A stretch of 64,000 nt of DNA, taken from Promicromonospora sp. AC04 (lineage in GTDB: Bacteria; Actinomycetota; Actinomycetes; Actinomycetales; Cellulomonadaceae). The stretch covers positions 620,001-684,000 of the forward strand of contig NZ_QBUG01000001.1 of the NCBI RefSeq assembly GCF_003058225.1, read 5' to 3'. The number at the start of each line of letters is the position of its first letter. The first letter of the stretch is position 1. Below, piece after piece: positions 44,937-58,046 of this stretch. Made by a program: the position numbers and the translations under genes. The notes below the pieces were generated by a model. It was given only the letters and a program-made list of their open reading frames with translations. It did no database searches and was not told the origin of the DNA.

Positions 44937-45868
44937 GGCCGCTCCTGCTCGTTGCCGGAGGCGTCGCCGGACACCGTGTCGACGGGGTAGTCGACGAACG
45001 CGAACGCCGATCCGTCGGGTGACCAGCTGGGCACGTTGATGGTGCCCTGGCCGCCGTCGAGCGCGACCAGGGTGGTGGGCCGCTGCCAGTCGCCGACGGA
45101 GACGAGCCGGAGCTCGACGGGCAGGTCCGCGGGGTGCCCCGTGGTGCCGGGCGGGTAGCTGAGGTAGACGACGACGTCGCCGGTCGGCGCGACGTGCGGG
45201 AACCAGTTGACGCGCTCGTCGAAGGTGAGCTGCTCCAGCCCGGCGCCGTCGGGCCGGACCCGGGCCAGCTGCGCGTGGCCGGGCTCGGCGGAGAACTGCT
45301 CGGTGTTGAAGAGGATCCACTCGCCGTCGGGCGTCCACTCGCAGCCGTCCGCGGGGCCGGGGTCGGTAGTGACTGCGACGTCGCCGGATCCGTCGATCCG
45401 GACGGTGTGGATGGTGGCCGACGCCCACCAGTTGTCGCCCTCGGGCTCCAGGCGCACGTAGCCGAGCAGGGTGCCGCCCGGGCTGATGCCGTGGAGGAAG
45501 TGCATCCCGCCGTCGTCGTTCGTCACCCGGCGGGCGTCGCCGCCGGCCAGAGGGACCGCCCAGATGTGCCAGTCGTTCGCTGACGCGAAGACCGTCACGC
45601 CGTCCGGGGAGAGGACGTGGTCGTTGTTGACGTCGGGCAGGCCGTTCGCGGCGATCGCCCGCGGCGGCGCCGACCCGTCGGCCGGGAGGGTCCACAGCAG
45701 CCCGTCCCCGTTCACGACGAGGCGGCCGTCCGCAGTCCAGTTCGGGGCCTCGTAGAGCCGCTCGCGGGACTCGTGCACGTCGCGGATCGCTCCGCTCGCG
45801 CGGTCCCAGACGCGGATCCGGGCTCGCTGCCCGCTCCGCAGGCGGCGGGCGGGAATCTCCTCGGTCAT
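44933..45868 (-). CDS. Cytoplasmic TolB-like beta-propeller protein
   Basis: This 311-residue protein is built of repeated PD40/WD40-like blades, seen as recurring ...PNWTADGRLV, HVLSPDGVTVF, EWTPDGEWILF, NVPSWSPDGSAFAF. It lacks a signal peptide, unlike true TolB, so it should be cytoplasmic. It shares four-base overlaps with the UPF0303 gene before it and the DUF1080 gene after it. The family often accompanies sugar oxidoreductase operons in actinobacteria; whether it binds sugar or acts as a lyase or epimerase is not known. Confidence 0.82.
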   Translation of the reverse strand: MTEEIPARRLRSGQRARIRVWDRASGAIRDVHESRERLYEAPNWTADGRLVVNGDGLLWTLPADGSAPPRAIAANGLPDVNNDHVLSPDGVTVFASANDWHIWAVPLAGGDARRVTNDDGGMHFLHGISPGGTLLGYVRLEPEGDNWWASATIHTVRIDGSGDVAVTTDPGPADGCEWTPDGEWILFNTEQFSAEPGHAQLARVRPDGAGLEQLTFDERVNWFPHVAPTGDVVVYLSYPPGTTGHPADLPVELRLVSVGDWQRPTTLVALDGGQGTINVPSWSPDGSAFAFVDYPVDTVSGDASGNEQERP

Positions 45869-46425
45869 CGGTTCGCTCCTTCGGCGAGGTGGGCGCGCAG
45901 TCCTTCGACGATGAGGTCATGGTCCTCCTGCGAGGACAGGCCCGAGGCAGTGGCGGCGGCAACGACGCCGACGCCGCGCACCCGGATGGGGAACGAGCCG
46001 CCCGTCACGGCGTAGTCCGCGCCCAGCCACCCGACGGCGGCGGCGTCGATCCCAGCGGCGGAGAGCCGCGCGTCGACGAGCGCGCTGCTGTTCTCCATCC
46101 GCAGCACGACGGCGGCCTTGCGGGCGATCCAGGTGTCCTGGTCGGGGGTGATCCCCGGCAGCGCGGCACGGAACAGGACCAGGCCGGGGCGCCGGATGTC
46201 GATGCCGACGGCGTGGCCCGCTTCCTGGGCGATAGCGGTGATCCGCGAGCCGAGGCGCCAGGCGTCGGCGTGGTCGAACGAGTCGAGGACCAGCTCGTGC
46301 TCCTGGCGCTCCAGCTCGGCGATGGCGTCGGTCAAGGTGGCTCCCCCGTGCGTCGTGGCTGCTTGAGTCGTGGCGGCTTCGACCGCGGCCGCTTCGGTAG
46401 TGGCCGCTTCGGTAGTGCCGGTCAT
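45865..46425 (-). CDS. UPF0303 / heme-degrading-domain-like (GlcG/HbpS-type) protein
   Basis: The 186-residue protein has a UPF0303 core: LVLDSFDHADAWRLGSRITAIAQEAGHAVGIDIRRPGLVLFRAALPGITPDQDTWIARKAAVV. The core is preceded by about 25 Ala/Thr/Glu residues with internal repeats (TTEAA, TTQAA). Members fold like GlcG/HbpS and are sometimes labelled heme-degrading, without firm biochemical proof. It is joined by four-base overlaps to the Gfo/Idh/MocA gene and the beta-propeller gene. Its role in sugar metabolism is unknown. Confidence 0.82.
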   Translation of the reverse strand: MTGTTEAATTEAAAVEAATTQAATTHGGATLTDAIAELERQEHELVLDSFDHADAWRLGSRITAIAQEAGHAVGIDIRRPGLVLFRAALPGITPDQDTWIARKAAVVLRMENSSALVDARLSAAGIDAAAVGWLGADYAVTGGSFPIRVRGVGVVAAATASGLSSQEDHDLIVEGLRAHLAEGANR

Positions 46426-47456
46426 GAGGCGGCGATCTGGGCTCGGGCCTCGTCGATGGTGGCGAGGATCGACACGGTCTCCTCCAGCGTGTGCACGGGC
46501 GACTCGGTACGGCCCTCGCCGACGAACCGCGCCAGCGCCGTCGCCTCCCACGACAGCCCGTCGAACAGCGTCAGGCCGGTCGGGTCGCTCCACGTGAGGG
46601 TCGGGGCCGCGTGGTCCGTGCCGGTCAGCGTGAAGGACGTCGGGGTGTAGAAGTAGGCGTCGACGAAGATCGACGCCTCCGACCCGGCGACCGCCGCCGT
46701 CGTGGGCGTGCGGGCCAGCATCGACGTCGTCAGCGTGGACTGCGCGCCCTGCCCGTGGGTGAGCACGAGCGTCGAGTACGCGTCCACCCCGGTCTGCGTC
46801 ATCCCGCCGACGGCGACGACGCCGGTCGGGGCGCCGAGGATCATCGAGTCGAGCTGCACCGGGTAGATCCCGAGGTCCAGGAGCGCTCCCCCGCCCAGCT
46901 CGGGCCGGTAGAGCCGGTGCTCGGGGTTCGCCGGGATCGCCTGGCCGTGGTCGGCGTGGACCGACCGGATCTCCCCGAGCACGCCGTCGGCGACAAGCCG
47001 GCGGAGGACCGACGCCTGGGGCAGGTAGCGGCTCCACATCGCTTCCATCACGAGCACGCCGGCGGCGCGGGCGGCGTCGGCCAGGGTCTGCGCCTCGGCG
47101 GCGTTCACCGCAATGGGCTTCTCGATCAGCACATGCTTCCCCGCGGCGATGGCCGCGAGGCCGGCCGCGAGATGCTCGCTCTGCGGGGTCGCGACGTAGA
47201 CGACGTCGACGTCGGGATGCGTGACGAGCTGGTCGACAGAGCCGAAGGCCTGCTCGATGCCGTGGGCCGCCGCGAACGCCGCGGCGCGATCGATCGAGCG
47301 GGACGCCACCGCGACAAGACGCTGCTTGGTGTGCGCCCGGAGGGCGTTCGCGAGCTCCCCGGCGATCCAGCCCGGTCCGACGATTCCCCAGCGCAGTGCC
47401 GGCTCCCCCGTGCCGGGGAGGTAGAGCTCGGGTTCGGGAAGGTGAGAAGGCAGCAT
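46422..47456 (-). CDS. Gfo/Idh/MocA-family sugar oxidoreductase
   Basis: The 344-residue protein has a Rossmann domain (LRWGIVGPGWIAGELANAL) and the catalytic EKP motif (GKHVLIEKPIAV), then the C-terminal alpha/beta domain (GGGALLDLGIYPVQL, where Asp and Tyr/His complete the site). Such enzymes oxidise or reduce sugars and inositols with NAD(P), including 3-keto sugars. The ATG at 47456 has TGGAG upstream; a GTG at 47501 would start within the operator. It is the first gene of an operon with UPF0303, beta-propeller and DUF1080 genes, and it is divergent from an MFS sugar transporter. Confidence 0.9.
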   Translation of the reverse strand: MLPSHLPEPELYLPGTGEPALRWGIVGPGWIAGELANALRAHTKQRLVAVASRSIDRAAAFAAAHGIEQAFGSVDQLVTHPDVDVVYVATPQSEHLAAGLAAIAAGKHVLIEKPIAVNAAEAQTLADAARAAGVLVMEAMWSRYLPQASVLRRLVADGVLGEIRSVHADHGQAIPANPEHRLYRPELGGGALLDLGIYPVQLDSMILGAPTGVVAVGGMTQTGVDAYSTLVLTHGQGAQSTLTTSMLARTPTTAAVAGSEASIFVDAYFYTPTSFTLTGTDHAAPTLTWSDPTGLTLFDGLSWEATALARFVGEGRTESPVHTLEETVSILATIDEARAQIAAS

Positions 47457-47494
47457 GTCCACGCTCCAGATCGACGTCGTTGTAGACGAACCAG

Positions 47495-47508
47495 TTGGCA
47501 CGAGCTAA
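47495..47508. promoter_or_regulatory. LacI-type operator copy 1 (shared 14-bp site)
   Basis: TTGGCACGAGCTAA lies in the divergent promoter between the Gfo/Idh/MocA and MFS genes. It differs by one base from the site at 47528 and resembles the site before the LacI gene. Confidence 0.75.
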
Positions 47509-49977: not shown

Positions 49978-49991
49978 CTTGCACGTGCCAA
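49978..49991. promoter_or_regulatory. LacI-type operator copy 3, in front of the LacI gene
   Basis: CTTGCACGTGCCAA (reverse complement TTGGCACGTGCAAG) matches the two sites at 47.5 kb in 11 of 14 positions compared with copy 1. Confidence 0.65.
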
Positions 49992-50149
49992 TAGAGGGGC
50001 ATCTCACACCTGCGGATGCACGTCCCGCAGGCGGTTTAGGCTGAGCGGACCAACTCCGAGCACGGGCCCCGGCCCGTGCTTCCTTGCGCGCAACCGCCAC
50101 CTTCGGCCGGCCCTCTGAGACGGCGTCGCTGGGATGCGGGGGCACACGC

Positions 50150-50230
50150 ATGCCCGTCCCATGGGCATAGATTTACGCGACGGCAACACAATGACCTGCA
50201 ATGGCTCTTTCTTCTGACCGGTATGTACCG
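50150..50230. promoter_or_regulatory. Upstream region of the P450-hydratase fusion with two inverted repeats
   Basis: The 299-base gap 49992-50290 separates divergent genes. ATGCCC (50150-50155) pairs with GGGCAT (50163-50168). Further down, CGGTATGTACCG (50219-50230) is a perfect 12-bp inverted repeat 61 bases before the start codon. The segment 50165-50235 is clearly less GC-rich than its surroundings, as expected for a promoter. No other elements are clear. Confidence 0.5.
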
Positions 50231-50290
50231 TATGTTCAATGACGTTCTCGGACGACGAGACCACGTCCCGGCCCAGGGGGAGTATTCGTT

Positions 50291-52405
50291 GTGCCCGATC
50301 GCACCGTCACGCCTGATATGACGACCGACGCCGAAGGCCCGGACACGTCCCGACGACACGTGCGCTCGCTGATCAAGCGGCTGGCCACACCCGAGGGGCG
50401 CGCCGACCCTCACGCCGTCTATGACGAGCTGCGGGCCATGGGCCCCGCGGTACGCATGCCGTGGGGAGCCTGGATGGTCACCTCGCACGGCGCGACCCAC
50501 GAGGTGCTCAGCGGATCCGGCTGGCGCACGGTGGACGCCCCCTGGCGCACCGAGCGCCAGCCGACGTGGGTACGGCACCCGGGACTGAAGTTCCTGCACG
50601 ACTCCGCGCTCGGCACCAACCCGCCCGGGCACGCCGGGCTGCGCCGCAGCCTCGGCTCGTTCGTCTCGCCGCAGTCGATAACCGACCTCACGCCGCAGAT
50701 CGTCCGGACCGTCCACGACTACATCGACGAGTTCGAGGCGGTGCTGCGCACCGACGGCGAGGCGGACTTCGGGGCCCTGGTCGGCGACCGGCTGCCGATG
50801 GCGGTGCTCTGCACCGTGCTCGGGCTGCCGCGCGACGACATCCCGCTGCTGTGCGAGATGAGCCGCATGCTCTCGAACGTGCACGACCTGGCGCCGAGCA
50901 AGGCGCGGATGGCGCAGGCCGACCGCGCCGGCAAGCTGTGGAACGCGTACTGGGAGCAGCTCGTGACCGAGCCCCGGCCACGGCTCGGGGAGGACTCGCC
51001 GCTGGGGCGCTGGCTCGACACCGAGTCCGACCCGGCGGTGCGCGCGGTGGCCGGATCCCAGCTCAACGTCATGATCGAGGCGGGCCTCGAGACGACGACG
51101 TCCCTGCTCTCCGAGGGCCTGGTCCAGCTCATCCGCCGACCCGACCAGGCCAGGTGGCTGCTCGACCACCCCGAGGCGGTGCACGGGGGCATCGAGGAGC
51201 TGGTCCGCGTCGTGTCGCCCGTACAGCTCATGACCCGGTACGCGGCGGAGGACACGGAGCTGCCGGGCGGCGTCCCGGTGGCGGCCGGACAGGTGGTGCA
51301 CGTGGTGGTCGCCGCGGCCAACCGCGACCCGGAGACCTACGACTCGCCGCACGACCTGGACCTCTCGCGCCCGCCACGCCGCAACCTCGCGTTCGGCGTG
51401 GGCATGCACTACTGCCTCGGCGCGCCGCTGGCCCGGCTGGAGGCGACGACGCTGTTCCCCGAGGTGCTGCAGCGGCTCGACCTCGAGCTCGCCGGGCCGG
51501 TGGGCTACGACGAGACCCTCGCCTTCCGCGGGACGCGGTCGGTGCCGGTGCGGCGGCGCCCGCGTCGTGCCGCGACGGCGGCCACCGGTGCGGCTGCCGT
51601 CAGAGCCGCTGCGCTCAGCGCGGCAGCGGTCGGCGCCGGTGCGGTGACGGCGCCAGCCGTCGAACCCGTGCTGGTCAACCGCGAGGACGCGGTACTGGTG
51701 GTGACCCTCACGCGGCCCGACGGCGACAACCGGCTCGACCGGGCGACGCTGACGGCCCTCGGCAGCGTGCTGACGACGCTGCCCGACGACGTCGACGCCG
51801 TCGTGCTGCGCGCCGAGGGGCGCCACTTCTGCGTGGGCGGCGACCTGGACGAGCTCGGCCGGCTCGCCACCGACGACCCCGACGGCTACCGGAACCTCGT
51901 CGAGCTCAGCGACGAGGTGCTGCACGCCTGGCGCACCTGCCCGGCGGTAACGGTCGCGGCGCTGCACGGCAGCGTCTCCGGGGCCGGGCTCGGGCTGGCG
52001 GTCGCGAGCGACCTGCGCGTGGCCGCACAGGACGCACGCTTCCGCGCGCCCGAGACGATCGTCAGCATCCCGGTGGGCCCGAGCGAGATGCTGGACCGGC
52101 TGACCACCGAGATCGGCGCCGGGCGGACCCGCGCGATGCTGCTGCTCGGCGACGCCGTGAGCGCCGAGCAGGCGCTGGAGAGCGGGCTGGTGCACGCCGT
52201 CGTCCCGACCGAGAACGTCTGGGCCGAGGCCAAGCGCCAGGCGCGGCGCATCGCCCGGCGCGACCGGGACGCCGTCCGCATCACCAAGCAGACGATGGCG
52301 CGGCTGCCGCACGACGGTCCCGATCCGGCGGAACGGTCCGACGCATGGGAGGCGCCCCTGGCCCAGGCCCTGCGCCGCCGGGTCGCCGCGGCTGACGCGC
52401 GGTAG
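50291..52405 (+). CDS. Cytochrome P450 - enoyl-CoA hydratase/isomerase fusion
   Basis: One uninterrupted frame of 704 residues encodes two complete enzymes. Residues 1-418 are a bacterial P450: oxygen-activating I-helix AGLETTT (264-270), ExxR (E303, R306) and heme motif FGVGMHYCLG with Cys375. An Ala-rich linker (about 419-455) follows. Residues 456-704 are a crotonase-fold domain with the oxyanion motif RHFCVGGDL and GSVSGAGLGLA. Of the two hydratase glutamates, the second is kept (E588 in PE) but the first is Gly568, suggesting isomerase, hydrolase or another crotonase reaction. GTG 50291 has GGGGGAG eight bases upstream. No ferredoxin or reductase gene lies nearby, so redox partners must come from elsewhere. 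The enzyme pair suggests oxidation of an acyl-CoA-linked substrate and further processing without release; this is inference. Confidence 0.92.
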   Translation: MPDRTVTPDMTTDAEGPDTSRRHVRSLIKRLATPEGRADPHAVYDELRAMGPAVRMPWGAWMVTSHGATHEVLSGSGWRTVDAPWRTERQPTWVRHPGLKFLHDSALGTNPPGHAGLRRSLGSFVSPQSITDLTPQIVRTVHDYIDEFEAVLRTDGEADFGALVGDRLPMAVLCTVLGLPRDDIPLLCEMSRMLSNVHDLAPSKARMAQADRAGKLWNAYWEQLVTEPRPRLGEDSPLGRWLDTESDPAVRAVAGSQLNVMIEAGLETTTSLLSEGLVQLIRRPDQARWLLDHPEAVHGGIEELVRVVSPVQLMTRYAAEDTELPGGVPVAAGQVVHVVVAAANRDPETYDSPHDLDLSRPPRRNLAFGVGMHYCLGAPLARLEATTLFPEVLQRLDLELAGPVGYDETLAFRGTRSVPVRRRPRRAATAATGAAAVRAAALSAAAVGAGAVTAPAVEPVLVNREDAVLVVTLTRPDGDNRLDRATLTALGSVLTTLPDDVDAVVLRAEGRHFCVGGDLDELGRLATDDPDGYRNLVELSDEVLHAWRTCPAVTVAALHGSVSGAGLGLAVASDLRVAAQDARFRAPETIVSIPVGPSEMLDRLTTEIGAGRTRAMLLLGDAVSAEQALESGLVHAVVPTENVWAEAKRQARRIARRDRDAVRITKQTMARLPHDGPDPAERSDAWEAPLAQALRRRVAAADAR

Positions 52406-52432
52406 GCCCCGGGCCTGCGTCCGGCGTCGGCC

Positions 52433-53044
52433 TCAATGGGCCGGGTCGAGGCCCGCGGCCTGGCGGGCCGCGCCGACGAAGGCCACGCGGACGTTGTCCC
52501 AGCCGTCGAGGTAGCCGCCCACGAGGGCCGCGTCGCGGAGCAGGACCAGCTGCCCGGCCCGGGTCACCGGGTCGTCCGAGCCCAGCGCGCTCACCACGCG
52601 CTCGAGCGAGCCACGGAACCAGGCACGGTGCTTGCCGACGGCGCGTCGCACCCCGCTGTCGGCGTCGGGGTACTCCGCGGCGGCGTTGATGAAGGGGCAG
52701 CCACGGGTGTGGTGGCGGGCGACGTCCTCGGCGATGCCGTCGATCAGGAGCCCTGCGAGCTCGACCGGGTCGTCGGTGGCCACCTGCGCCGCGTCGAACA
52801 TGCCGCGGAGGTTCGCGTCCTCCACCCCGAGGTAGGCCTCGACCAGGTCTTCCTTGCTCGGGAAGTGCCGGTAGAAGGTGGCGCGCGTGACCCCGGCCGC
52901 GGCGACGATGCGATCGACGCCGACCACGTGGATGCCCTCGGCGTAGAACAGCTCGGACGCGGTCCGCAGCAGCCGCTCGCGCGCCTCCGAGCCCCCGTCG
53001 GCCGTCTTTCGCGGAGCGCGGGAGGCGGTTGTCCTGGGTGCCAT
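52433..53044 (-). CDS. TetR-family transcriptional regulator
   Basis: The 203-residue protein has a TetR helix-turn-helix (about 20-70: RLLRTASELFYAEGIHVVGVDRIVAAAGVTRATFYRHFPSKEDLV). A ligand domain follows with RGCPFINAAAEYPD, typical of the LmrA/YxaF-like TetR group. Starts at ATG 53044 or 53056 are both possible. It is divergent from an alpha/beta hydrolase gene, with an operator pair in between. It converges on the P450 fusion gene but probably does not control it. Confidence 0.9.
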   Translation of the reverse strand: MAPRTTASRAPRKTADGGSEARERLLRTASELFYAEGIHVVGVDRIVAAAGVTRATFYRHFPSKEDLVEAYLGVEDANLRGMFDAAQVATDDPVELAGLLIDGIAEDVARHHTRGCPFINAAAEYPDADSGVRRAVGKHRAWFRGSLERVVSALGSDDPVTRAGQLVLLRDAALVGGYLDGWDNVRVAFVGAARQAAGLDPAH

Positions 53045-54061: not shown

Positions 54062-54127
54062 GGCGTCGAACGTAGGCCTGGTCGCTCTCTCGGCGCACAT
54101 GACGCGACCAGGCCTACGTTCGACGCC
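54062..54127. terminator. Perfect 24-bp inverted repeat, terminator-like
   Basis: Bases 54062-54085 pair perfectly with 54104-54127 around an 18-base loop, starting 14 bases after the hydrolase stop. It is longer than most terminators, lacks a U tract and ends 50 bases before the aminotransferase start. Confidence 0.7.
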
Positions 54128-54176
54128 CGCCCGCTCGGCGCGGCAGCGCCGCGGGCGACTCACTAGGGTCATCAGG

Positions 54177-54905
54177 GTGCGTATCGAGACCGACGGCCGC
54201 CCCGCGGCGCCAGCCGACCTGTTCAGCACCTACGGCCACTTCACGGCTATGCAGGTGCGCGACGGCGGGGTGCAGGGGCTGGAGAACCACCTCACCCGGC
54301 TCGACGCCGCGCACCGCGAGCTGTTCGGGCAGCCGCTGGCCGGAGAGCGGGTCCGCGACCTCGTGCGGCACGCCCTGGACGGGACGGCCGACGCCTCGGT
54401 GCGGGTGGTGCTCCGCCATGCCGAGCACGTAGTGGTGACGGTCGACGAGCCGCACTTCCCGCCCGCCACGCCGCAGCGGCTGCGGTCGGTCCCCTACCTG
54501 CGCCCGTTCGCCCACGTCAAACACCTGGGCGGCTTCGCGCAGGCCGAGTGGGCGCGGCGGGTCCGGCTGGATGGGTACGACGACGCCCTGCTCACCGCAC
54601 CCGACGGCGCGGTCGCCGAGTCGTCGATCGCGAACATCGGGTTCCTGGAGGCCGACGGCGACGTCCTTTGGCCGGACGCACCCCAGCTGCACGGCATCGC
54701 CATGCAGCTGGTCGAGGCCACCACGCCGTCGGCCCAGCGGCCCGTCCCGCTCGCCGACGTCACGGCGTTCGCCGGCGCGTTCCTGGTCAACTCGATCGGC
54801 GTCGTCGCCGTCGCCTCGATCGACGACGTCACGCTGCCCGACGCCGGGGCCCTGCTCGCCGGCGTCGTCGACCGCCTCGCCTCCGTTCCGTGGGACCGGG
54901 TCTGA
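54177..54905 (+). CDS. Class IV aminotransferase
   Basis: The 242-residue protein has the fold-type IV PLP pattern: Lys in FAHVKHLGG, substrate and cofactor contacts in DALLTAPDGAVAESSIANIGFLEADG. Relatives include 4-amino-4-deoxychorismate lyase and branched-chain or D-amino-acid transaminases; at 242 residues it is shorter than branched-chain transaminases (about 300), closer to the lyase. GTG 54177 gives a start just before strand 1. A monocistronic unit is likely, flanked by hairpin and iron operon. Confidence 0.87.
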   Translation: MRIETDGRPAAPADLFSTYGHFTAMQVRDGGVQGLENHLTRLDAAHRELFGQPLAGERVRDLVRHALDGTADASVRVVLRHAEHVVVTVDEPHFPPATPQRLRSVPYLRPFAHVKHLGGFAQAEWARRVRLDGYDDALLTAPDGAVAESSIANIGFLEADGDVLWPDAPQLHGIAMQLVEATTPSAQRPVPLADVTAFAGAFLVNSIGVVAVASIDDVTLPDAGALLAGVVDRLASVPWDRV

Positions 54906-54991
54906 CGCGGTCCCGCGGGAGTTACCGTCCGGCGCCGCGAGGCGGACCGGGGCCGTCGCAAAGGGTGGCAGATCCGACCATGTCGCCAAGG

Positions 54992-55010
54992 TAAGGTAAG
55001 GCTTGCTTTA
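54992..55010. promoter_or_regulatory. Iron box (IdeR/DmdR-type) before the siderophore importer
   Basis: TAAGGTAAGGCTTGCTTTA matches the 19-base IdeR/DmdR1 consensus (TTAGGTTAGGCTAACCTAA) at 13 of 19 positions, with both halves recognisable. It lies 26 bases before the GTG start of the binding protein. Confidence 0.8.
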
Positions 55011-55035
55011 TCCCGATTCCTCAGGAGGCCTTGCC

Positions 55036-56028
55036 GTGCGCGCACTTCGTCTTGTCCCCATCGCGCTCGCCGCCGGTGTGGCGCTGCTGGCCGGGTGCGC
55101 GAGCACCGCGCCCGAGGAGGCGGCACCCGAGGGTGGGGCCTGGAGCTACACCTCGGGCGACGGCAAGACGTACACCGCGGACGAGGTACCCACTCGCATC
55201 ATCGCGCACGCCTACGCGGCGAAGGTGCTCATGGAGTTCGGGATCGTCCCGGTCGGGATCTACGCGGACGGCGACATCGAGAGCGACGTCGGCCTCCAGG
55301 GAGCCGACTTCGAGGGCGTCGAGGTCATCGGCGAGGAGTGGGGCAAGATCGACGTCGAGAAGGCGGCAGCGCTCGCACCCGACCTCATCGTCGGTGACTG
55401 GTGGCCGGCCGAGGACGCGTACTCGGGCCTCGAAGGCGGGGTCGAGGAGTCGAGCAAGAAGATCGGGGAGCTCGCGCCCGTCGTCGGCGCGGCGCAGGGC
55501 GACTCGATAGTCGAGCTGATCGAGGGCTACGCCGAGCTGGCCGAGTCGCTCGGGGCGGACACCTCGGTGATCGAAGCGCAGCGGGCCGACTTCGACGCAG
55601 CGCTCGAGGAGTTCAAGACCGCGGTCGCCGCGAAGCCCGACCTGACGGCACTGGCGATCAGCCCGTATGAGGACACGTACGCGGTGGCCGTGCCCGAGTA
55701 CGCACCCGAGCTGCTCGACCTGCAGTCATGGGGCCTTGACGTGATCGACCCGACGACGCCCGACCCCGAGTTCCCCTACTGGGAGAGCCTCAGCTTCGAG
55801 AACGCGGACACGTACCAGCCGGACGTGCTGCTCTTCGACGACCGCAGCTACCCGGCCAACGAGGAGACGCTCGCCGCCCAGCCGATCGCCAAGGACATCG
55901 CCGCCCACGCGGCCGGCGCGTACACGACCTGGCCGGCCTACTGGCTGCACACCTACCCCGACTACGCCGAGCAGCTGCGCGACCTCACAAAGTTCGTCAA
56001 CGGGGCTGACGAGAACCTCACGGACTGA
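55036..56028 (+). CDS. Iron-siderophore ABC substrate-binding lipoprotein
   Basis: The 330-residue protein starts with a lipoprotein signal ending in LLAGC (Cys21). The mature part has the FecB/FepB-type cleft with PTRIIAHAYAAKVLMEFGIVPVGIY and LAPDLIVGDWW. It captures a ferric siderophore outside the cell. AGGAGG precedes the GTG at 55036; the frame start at 55003 lies within the iron box. It heads a four-gene importer operon and should be repressed by iron. Confidence 0.92.
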   Translation: MRALRLVPIALAAGVALLAGCASTAPEEAAPEGGAWSYTSGDGKTYTADEVPTRIIAHAYAAKVLMEFGIVPVGIYADGDIESDVGLQGADFEGVEVIGEEWGKIDVEKAAALAPDLIVGDWWPAEDAYSGLEGGVEESSKKIGELAPVVGAAQGDSIVELIEGYAELAESLGADTSVIEAQRADFDAALEEFKTAVAAKPDLTALAISPYEDTYAVAVPEYAPELLDLQSWGLDVIDPTTPDPEFPYWESLSFENADTYQPDVLLFDDRSYPANEETLAAQPIAKDIAAHAAGAYTTWPAYWLHTYPDYAEQLRDLTKFVNGADENLTD

Positions 56029-57029
56029 TGGCGGCAGTCGCCACCCGCCCCAGGCGCAGCAACACACGCATCGCAGGCGGGCTGATCCTGTCCGCCCTCG
56101 CGCTGCTCGCCGTGTGCGCCGCGTCGATCCTGCTCGGCTCGCGCACCATCAACCTCGCGGCGCTGGCGCAGACCGACCTGACGGTCATCCTCGACATGCG
56201 GGTGCCGCGCACGGTGCTCGGGCTGCTCGCCGGAGCCGCCCTCGCCGTGAGCGGCACCCTCCTGCAGGGCGTCGCCCGCAACCCGCTCGCCGACCCCGGG
56301 ATCATGGGCATCAACGCGGGGGCTGCCGTCGCCGTCGTCACCGGCATCCTCGTTCTCGGCAGGCAGGCGACCGGCGCGAGCGTCTGGCTCGCGTTCCTCG
56401 GGGCGGGAGCGGCGATCGCGGCCGTGTACACGACAGCGTCCTTCGGCCGAGAGGGAGCCACGCCGGTCAAGCTGGCCCTCGCGGGTGTGGTGGTCACCGC
56501 GGTGTGCTCGTCGGTCACCTCGGCGATCGTGCTCGCCGACGCCGACGCGCTCGAGGAGCTGCGCGTGTGGCAGGTCGGGGCGCTCGCCGGGCGGTACTGG
56601 CCCGTCGTCCTGCAGGTCGGGCCCTACGTCCTGGTCGGGCTGGTCGCGGCGATGTTCCTGGCTCGTCCGCTGAACCTGCTGGCCCTCGGTGATGCTCTCG
56701 CGATCTCGCTCGGGCAGCACGTACGCCGCAACCGCACCATCACGTTCGTCGTCGTGGCCGTGCTGTGCGGGGCCGCGACCGCGGCGTGCGGGCCCATCGC
56801 GTTCCTCGGGCTCATGGTGCCGCATCTCGTCCGCCTCGTCACCGGGCCGGACTACCGGTGGATCCTCGCCTACAGCTTCGTGCTCGGGCCCCTCGTGCTG
56901 CTGCTCTGCGACATCGTGGGGCGGCTCGTGTCGGCGCCGGGTGAGCTGCAGGTCGGCGTCGTGCTCGGCGTCGTCGGAGCGCCGGTCTTCATCACCATCG
57001 TGCGCCTGCGGCGCGGTGTGGAGCTGTAG
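56028..57029 (+). CDS. FecCD-family iron-siderophore permease
   Basis: The 333-residue inner-membrane protein has about nine hydrophobic segments and the FecCD signatures MRVPRTVLGLLAGAALAVSGTLLQGVARNPLADPGIMG and CGPIAFLGLMVPHLVRL. It begins one base inside the preceding stop (TGATG). It forms the channel with the next gene product. Confidence 0.93.
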   Translation: MAAVATRPRRSNTRIAGGLILSALALLAVCAASILLGSRTINLAALAQTDLTVILDMRVPRTVLGLLAGAALAVSGTLLQGVARNPLADPGIMGINAGAAVAVVTGILVLGRQATGASVWLAFLGAGAAIAAVYTTASFGREGATPVKLALAGVVVTAVCSSVTSAIVLADADALEELRVWQVGALAGRYWPVVLQVGPYVLVGLVAAMFLARPLNLLALGDALAISLGQHVRRNRTITFVVVAVLCGAATAACGPIAFLGLMVPHLVRLVTGPDYRWILAYSFVLGPLVLLLCDIVGRLVSAPGELQVGVVLGVVGAPVFITIVRLRRGVEL

Positions 57030-58046
57030 GTGTTCCGACTCGAACGCCGCGCCCGCACGCGCCGGGCCCTTGCCGTCACCGCCGCACTGGCGGTCGGCGC
57101 CGTTTGCGCTTTCGTCGTGTCGATGATGCTCGGCAGCTACGTGCTCGGGCCGGGCGAGGTCCTGCGGTCCGTGCTCGGCCTGTCCTCGGACCCGGCCGAC
57201 GACTTCGTCGTGCGGGAGCTGCGGCTGCCGCGTGCGGCCACGGCGGTGCTCGTCGGGCTTGCGCTCGGGGCGGCGGGCAGCGTCTTCCAGCGCGTCCTGC
57301 GCAACCCGCTCGCGGCCCCCGACATCATCGGGATCTCGGCAGGAGCGAGCACTGCCACCGTCGCAGGGCTCGTGCTCTTCGGCGCGGGCGGCCTCGGGCT
57401 GTCGGTCGCGGGCCTCGCCGGGGCCCTCGCCACAGCGGCGGCCGTCTACCTGCTCGCCTGGCGCGGCGGCATCGCGGACTACCGGTTCGTCCTCGTCGGC
57501 GTGGGGGTGGCCGTGCTGCTGGAGTCGGTGACCGGATACCTCGTCTCCCGCGCCGAGATCTCCGACGCCCGGGCCGCCATGACCTGGCTCGTTGGCTCGG
57601 TGGGCATGGCCGGCGGCGGTGAGATCGCCGGGCTGGCCGCCGGCTGCGCGGTCGTCATCCCCGTGCTGATGGCGCTCTCGCGGCGGCTCGGCGTGCTGGA
57701 GCTCGGGGCCGAGGGGGCACGGGGGCTCGGCCTGCGCCCCCAGGCGGAGACCGCAGTGCAGCTCGGGTGCGCCGTCGTGCTCGTCGCCCTCGCGACGGCG
57801 GCCGCCGGGCCGATCGCGTTCGTCGCGCTCATGGCCGGGCCGATCGCCGGCCGCCTCCTCGGCCCGGCCGGCGACCGGGTGCTGGCCTCGGCCCTCGTCG
57901 GCTCGATCATCGTGCAGGCCGCCGACCTCGTCGCGCAGCACGTGCTGCCCTACCCCATCTCCACGGGCATCGTCACGGGACTCGTAGGCGCCCCGTACAT
58001 CGCCTGGCTGCTCATCCGAACCGACAGACAGGGAGTGGGCGCGTGA
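57030..58046 (+). CDS. FecCD-family iron-siderophore permease
   Basis: The 338-residue inner-membrane protein carries LRLPRAATAVLVGLALGAAGSVFQRVLRNPLAAPDIIGISAGAS and AAGPIAFVALMAGPIAGRL, the second permease of the pair. GTG 57030 follows the preceding stop directly, and its stop overlaps the ATPase start by four bases (GTGA). Confidence 0.93.
   Translation: MFRLERRARTRRALAVTAALAVGAVCAFVVSMMLGSYVLGPGEVLRSVLGLSSDPADDFVVRELRLPRAATAVLVGLALGAAGSVFQRVLRNPLAAPDIIGISAGASTATVAGLVLFGAGGLGLSVAGLAGALATAAAVYLLAWRGGIADYRFVLVGVGVAVLLESVTGYLVSRAEISDARAAMTWLVGSVGMAGGGEIAGLAAGCAVVIPVLMALSRRLGVLELGAEGARGLGLRPQAETAVQLGCAVVLVALATAAAGPIAFVALMAGPIAGRLLGPAGDRVLASALVGSIIVQAADLVAQHVLPYPISTGIVTGLVGAPYIAWLLIRTDRQGVGA

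Follow-up and report, generated by a model that had tools for sequence, protein, structure and literature searches.

A cytochrome P450 fused to a crotonase-fold domain in Promicromonospora and its unfused counterpart in Streptomyces

The window analysed here, a 64,000-nucleotide stretch of the 6.85 Mb genome of Promicromonospora sp. AC04, carries a gene (50291–52405, forward strand, stop included) that begins with a GTG codon and runs through a 704-codon open frame with zero internal stops. A Shine-Dalgarno-like AGGGGGAG (50275–50282, forward strand), read directly from the DNA, ends 8 nt 5' of this GTG, and the ribosome-binding site of the gene is good. GC at the three codon positions (0.77/0.52/0.94) is similar to the values for coding frames called elsewhere in the window, and the high GC most likely accounts for a long frame that lies open opposite the gene (50036–52312, reverse strand). 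Scanning 49990–52700 for promoters and terminators gave no match. Pairwise NG86 comparisons of the window gene with nine relatives placed pN well below pS in both halves, with dN/dS at 0.28–0.34 for the P450 half and 0.34–0.44 for the crotonase half, values that are rough because of the high GC3; by these estimates, selection on the gene is purifying, though not strict. Elsewhere in the window, a class IV aminotransferase of aminodeoxychorismate-lyase-like type is followed by a siderophore-type uptake set consisting of a periplasmic binding protein and two FecCD permeases (54099–58046, forward strand), and a frame with an HbpS-like heme-degrading domain (residues 254–380 of 390), probably called too long, overlaps a GFO/IDH/MocA oxidoreductase frame (45865–47501, reverse strand).

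Pfam domains found along this open frame confirm the original prediction that a complete cytochrome P450 and a complete crotonase are joined in one frame via an Ala-rich linker, and the residues it had singled out (AGLETTT at 264–270, E303/R306, C375, G568 and E588) all proved correct in translation and alignment. The P450 half (residues 1–425; 50291–51565, forward strand, as are all features of the gene given below) was delimited with PF00067, which scores 62.8 bits against a cut-off of 22.8 with its best stretch at residues 301–400, and by alignment to PDB structures, in which residues 31–420 align on the best P450 structure, 3ejb, as befits a full-length P450. The half carries the motifs that define a cytochrome P450, namely the acid and Thr of the I-helix (AGLETTT, residues 264–270; 51080–51100), the K-helix ExxR (E303–R306; 51197–51208) and the heme-ligand cysteine (Cys375; 51413–51415). 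In our residue-count alignments, some rows are near-copies, two species are represented twice and at least one P450 (L094) has no crotonase partner; in the P450 alignment so composed, E267, T268, E303, R306, H373 and C375 are invariant in 61 of the 61 rows with a letter (63 rows in all), and the P450 half looks competent on this pattern.

The linker that follows (about residues 426–457; 51566–51661) is probably flexible, with pLDDT below 50 at residues 427–456 in a full-length model built with a 30-row alignment (mean pLDDT 75, pTM 0.59), which is also of low confidence at three stretches of the crotonase half (residues 516–519, 588–598 and 672–690). Among the fusion-bearing genomes, the linker varies in length, sequence and repeat content, with a short Ala-Gly run at one extreme and a long stretch of ERPT repeats at the other; it is always in frame, and there is no stop in any.

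The remainder of the protein (residues 458–704; 51662–52402) is a crotonase-fold half of the enoyl-CoA hydratase/isomerase family, matched by PDB crotonases and by PF00378 (residues 464–671, 126.6 bits against a cut-off of 27). Its place in the crotonase superfamily is further marked by the conserved glycines G516, G564 and G566, which we take to be those of the oxyanion-hole motif and which, along with D574, P587 and E588, are present in 60 of 60 alignment rows. The two Glu positions of enoyl-CoA hydratases are not both occupied: Glu588 (52052–52054), the retained catalytic Glu of E164 type, is kept in 60/60 rows, whereas the E144-type position, that of the first hydratase Glu, is Gly568 (51992–51994) in the window protein and holds Ala in 41 rows, Gly in 19 and Glu in none. 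Comparison with solved relatives of the same fold family reads the same way, since 3-hydroxypropionyl-CoA dehydratase (5zai) shares the E164-type Glu and has its second Glu at the G568 column, and the crotonase 4k3w has Gly there and thus the same one-Glu pattern as the fusion; the earlier claim that the domain keeps E588 and has Gly568 for the other Glu is accordingly borne out. On these residues, the crotonase clade of the fusion is a one-Glu crotonase. Plain hydration by this half is unlikely because the E144-type Glu, never present in the rows collected, is absent and the E164-type Glu is kept, in line with the chemistry originally predicted; isomerase, elimination or C–C chemistry would fit better.

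Among solved P450s, the acyl-ACP P450 known as P450BioI (PDB 3ejb/3ejd) scores best against the P450 half, both by sequence and in a fold comparison covering this half, at only 26% identity over 379 residues. CYP114 lies only about 1 Z below P450BioI in the fold comparison, and an acyl-ACP-type substrate is therefore not implied. Identities to PDB P450s are 20–29% among the best 50 matches listed; membership of a numbered CYP family takes 40% identity or more with a member already named. A CYP154-like label for the fused P450 was dropped, as no test stood behind it. Known P450 fusions include P450-reductase and P450-ferredoxin proteins and the flavodoxin-P450 XplA, which likewise combine a P450 naturally with another functional domain; in these a redox partner is attached, whereas here the attached domain is a crotonase and an outside electron donor would still be needed. 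No P450–crotonase fusion, and no crotonase in the conservons discussed below, was found described in the accessible text of the open-licence literature, which agrees with the original prediction that such fusions are no established class, and the architecture is apparently undescribed.

We found the intact fused gene in 11 of the genomes searched, comprising 8 of 13 Promicromonospora genomes, two genomes of a second genus of the family and one of a distant family. A first sample of 59 genomes held the fused gene in eight (8/13 within the genus, 0/46 drawn outside it), and a family-wide search recovered the fused frame in 10 of 221 genomes. The eight Promicromonospora fusions are 84–86% identical to the window gene; identity in the second genus is 80% over the whole gene in one genome, and 82% and 70% for two pieces in the other. 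Both halves were matched in the window's own genome only in a sample of the phylum (396 genomes), where two candidates were scored per genome and a lower-ranked fusion could escape. Searching a class sample (394 genomes) with the crotonase half yielded one further fusion, in a genome of another family (G1024), whose 740-residue open frame (L185) has both domains, at 50% (P450) and 55% (crotonase) identity, and a linker unrelated to the other linkers; the other 34 of the 35 genomes searched in the family and order of G1024 held no fusion. The same class-wide search gave 29 fetched loci besides the window's, of which 19 have no such P450 in their flanks, and some of these P450-less crotonase loci score close to the Streptomyces partners described below. 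At E 1e-60 the fusion went unmatched in five of the 13 Promicromonospora genomes and is therefore dispensable.

Assembly error was rejected because independent genomes and assemblies have the open frame in common. The claim that the fusion is real is upheld by this recurrence of the joined frame, and the counter-case named alongside it, that homologues would always be two separate genes, does not apply: the halves are fused in 11 genomes and separate in Streptomyces.

In Streptomyces, the same P450 and crotonase occur unfused as adjoining separate genes, an origin absent from the original prediction. Three of the best four matches to the P450 half outside the family in the phylum sample (L017–L019, which probably belong to Streptomyces) consist of a P450 gene with a crotonase gene immediately after it, and the eight other loci fetched in that sample (L020–L027) have no crotonase in their flanks. 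Across 199 Streptomyces genomes, the crotonase was detected in 60 (E 1e-40) and the P450 in 59 (E 1e-75), with the crotonase directly 3' of the P450 on the same strand at 58 of 61 P450 places; the three exceptions are two second paralogues and a P450 at a contig end (G555), whose crotonase lies on another contig. Among 30 Streptomyces crotonase loci fetched, the P450 is upstream in 29 and the thirtieth is cut by a contig end. The crotonase start codon and the P450 stop form a 4-base overlap in five of nine named loci examined. Two Streptomyces copies of the pair (L133 and L059) have the P450 split over two frames and are either decayed or misread.

Trees of the P450 (51 rows) and the crotonase (45 rows), each sampling 8 of the 11 fusions along with 18 Streptomyces pairs, split the fusions and the Streptomyces pairs from other relatives with support of 100/99 (P450) and 98/94 (crotonase); the outgroups were hand-picked from the best other matches. 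Within both trees, fusions and Streptomyces pairs each fall on one side of a branch, and the fusion clade, in which the G1024 protein is the deepest member, is supported at 100/99 (P450 tree) and 99/95 (crotonase tree). Both trees group the sampled fusions as one clade and support a single fusion event; the simplest account, which a larger set of outgroups could alter, is that an older pair became fused once, and the P450–crotonase pair seems to be older than its tether.

The surroundings of the Streptomyces pair point to conservons, which are actinobacterial G-protein systems (PMC13343842, main text). The same text describes P450 (CvnE) and GAF (CvnF) accessories that go with CvnA proteins lacking sensory domains, presents an AlphaFold2 model in which CvnE11 sits on the ATPase domains of CvnA11, and gives the role of the P450 accessories as unknown; CvnE-type P450 accessories belong to conservons 9–12 of S. 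coelicolor (PMC8510531, available text). P450 and GAF accessories are named in the accessible text of both papers, and crotonases are not: 'enoyl' is absent from the main text of PMC13343842 and 'hydratase' from the available text of PMC8510531. At all 17 named Streptomyces pair loci among the matches listed, conservon genes and another P450 precede the pair, in the order cvnA-cvnB-cvnC-cvnD-CYP157-like P450-P450-crotonase; 16 of the 17 have all of cvnA-D, and the other (L085) starts at cvnC, where its contig ends. Pfam assigned HATPase, Roadblock/LC7, DUF742 and small GTPase domains to representative conservon genes. The P450 upstream of the pair reads xTLW or xVLW with the ExxR Arg absent (28 rows listed of 30, in a set that includes Promicromonospora copies). 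According to the available text of PMC3599690, CYP157 is a family of P450s without ExxR, with which this upstream P450 shares both the missing Arg and the linkage to Streptomyces conservons. The fused P450 differs, as its ExxR is intact, and is not of the CYP157 type.

Unlike the Streptomyces pair, the window gene lies outside any conservon: the window has no cvn match at E 1e-6, and hence no operon with cvnA-B-C-D to which the gene could be an accessory. Conservon linkage was likewise searched for in the window species and found absent, the DUF742 (cvnC) genes of its genome being on contigs C12 and C3, while the CYP157-like P450 has its nearest counterpart there on contig C7. In the stretches read around the fusion in the window genome and the two second-genus genomes, there is no conservon gene and no CYP157-like P450; each of these three genomes has a single such CYP157-like copy at E 1e-120, unlinked to the fusion. 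A signalling role in those three genomes is therefore unsupported. Across stretches of about 20 kb, the seven fusion-bearing relatives yielded a single cvn match, a weak one to cvnB (34%) that lies at the edge of L032.

Seven of the eight fusion-bearing Promicromonospora genomes do have a CYP157-like P450 upstream of the fusion, at a distance of 321–599 bp and on the same strand; it reads ETLW in the copy inspected. We rejected the idea that this P450 was inherited together with the pair from an operon like that of Streptomyces, since a tree places it far from the Streptomyces conservon copies and shows it as a recent copy of a gene that all 15 genomes searched possess. The association of the pair or fusion with a CYP157-like P450 thus seems to have two separate origins. 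This suggests a functional link, although the Promicromonospora duplicate is one event in one clade.

The G1024 fusion has a neighbourhood of its own. Some 220–320 bp upstream of it, on the same strand, lies a type III PKS that matches 1u0m (PDB title 'putative polyketide synthase'), presumably the S. coelicolor THN synthase, with 557.7 bits and E 1.2e-166, and the same stretch contains a GMC oxidoreductase and a thiolase-like gene. This neighbour would point to ordinary natural-product tailoring; queried with the G1024 PKS, the window and all other fetched loci gave no match. Links to DpgA and DpgD were rejected, with NCBIfam scores of 129.8 against a cut-off of 425 for DpgA and 127.6 against 400 for DpgD (Streptomyces partner), the former being also outweighed by the far better match of the G1024 PKS to 1u0m. 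With the PKS just upstream of the fusion, the G1024 stretch (L215:8614-12137) is also a possible new pigment locus.

Taken as a Rosetta stone, the fusion indicates that the same P450 and the same crotonase work together. We consider it somewhat probable that the gene encodes a genuine two-domain enzyme derived from an old, stable pair, with a competent P450 and a single-Glu crotonase catalysing coupled steps, most likely on one thioester-linked substrate. As the chain has no reductase domain, a separate ferredoxin would reduce the P450 half, which would then oxidise a substrate either already in the form of a CoA (or carrier) thioester or turned into one afterwards. We infer such a substrate because crotonases use thioesters and because the acyl-ACP enzyme P450BioI scores best, although this match is a weak hint to an acyl carrier, with other P450s within about 1 Z. 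The crotonase half would act next, its lone Glu promoting a double-bond shift, an elimination or a C–C rearrangement of the enolate, and the tether would hold the two steps together; the channelling of a CoA- or carrier-bound chain, as originally predicted, is likewise putative.

An unlikely alternative, to which we nevertheless give some weight, is that the crotonase half performs no catalysis on the P450 product and serves as an oligomer-forming scaffold or an acyl-CoA-binding module, by which tethered P450s would be presented or regulated. The loss of the E144-type Glu throughout the crotonase alignment would suit such a role, as would the presence among its PDB matches of EchA6, which we take to be a non-catalytic acyl-CoA binder, but the strict retention of E588 and of the three glycines would be unneeded by a pure scaffold, and a pair that seems to predate its tether in both trees also speaks against it. 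Rather less probable is that the fusion tailors an aromatic polyketide from a type III PKS, of the THN/flaviolin type, and that the connection with conservons in Streptomyces is a matter of regulating the pair and nothing more. The PKS next to the G1024 fusion argues for this, but it is found in that one genome, with no counterpart in the window or the other loci fetched, and THN-type products are not known to carry a CoA thioester that would need a crotonase.

It is quite improbable that two unrelated enzymes were merely joined for co-expression, with no common substrate. The poorly conserved linker, its low model confidence and dN/dS values that indicate only moderate constraint are compatible with this, whereas the adjacency of the genes at nearly all Streptomyces places, the persistence of the fusion in 11 genomes and the like branching of the two trees, as judged by eye, are not what such a joining would leave. 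We attach very little credence to a sequencing or assembly artefact, which is countered by the frame being common to independent assemblies, or to the synthesis of two proteins through an internal start. GAGG or GAGGA runs do precede in-frame GTG codons at the point where the first crotonase strand lies, both in the window and in seven relatives, but they were not found in the two second-genus fusions, and starting at those GTG codons would truncate the crotonase domain.

For the two-domain enzyme with coupled steps, the crotonase partner indicates the class of chemistry to seek, that of CoA-thioester enolates, and the fusion offers a natural two-step P450 enzyme for study. Overall, the fused gene is a conserved architecture with an informative origin that hints at a link to conservon signalling. 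The position of the Streptomyces pair at the 3' end of a G-protein operon hints in turn that it handles the chemical signal of the system, and the fusion gives a concrete starting point in the search for the small molecule of such an actinobacterial G-protein system. As a further step, the small molecule of the P450 and crotonase could be part of conservon signalling chemistry, with the ExxR-less P450 of the conservon as a sensor instead of an oxygenase and, speculatively, with the product or substrate of the pair as its ligand. A sensor role would fit the placement of CvnE11 on CvnA11 and the CvnA proteins without sensory domains (PMC13343842, main text). Tentatively, and with low expectation, we propose that the P450 and crotonase make or erase the signal of P450-type conservons: the product of a CoA-linked molecule would bind CvnE, which would contact CvnA and set the G-protein switch, and in Promicromonospora the two enzymes would have become one polypeptide, with a CYP157-like neighbour re-acquired independently.

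CYP157-like P450s are numerous in the window genome, where at least ten are scattered over contigs C1, C5, C6, C7, C9, C12 and C15 (L042–L050). The ExxR Arg is absent in nine of the ten aligned, and the set would represent an expansion of presumably non-oxygenase P450s. Their neighbours include CoaE, a GTPase, a 2-hydroxyacid dehydrogenase and a DUF1963 protein. The P450 beside CoaE (L042:9507-10811), itself without ExxR, has a close relative in every one of the 15 genomes searched in two genera, at 82–89% to the query. At two loci (L048:5625-8362 and L049:7472-10111), a Sulfotransfer_3 gene directly adjoins the CYP157-like P450, a possible repeated partnership. Finally, one locus (L045, G000:C12:25972 region) is a conservon of the window genome whose P450 keeps ExxR (EVSR), unlike the other nine aligned.
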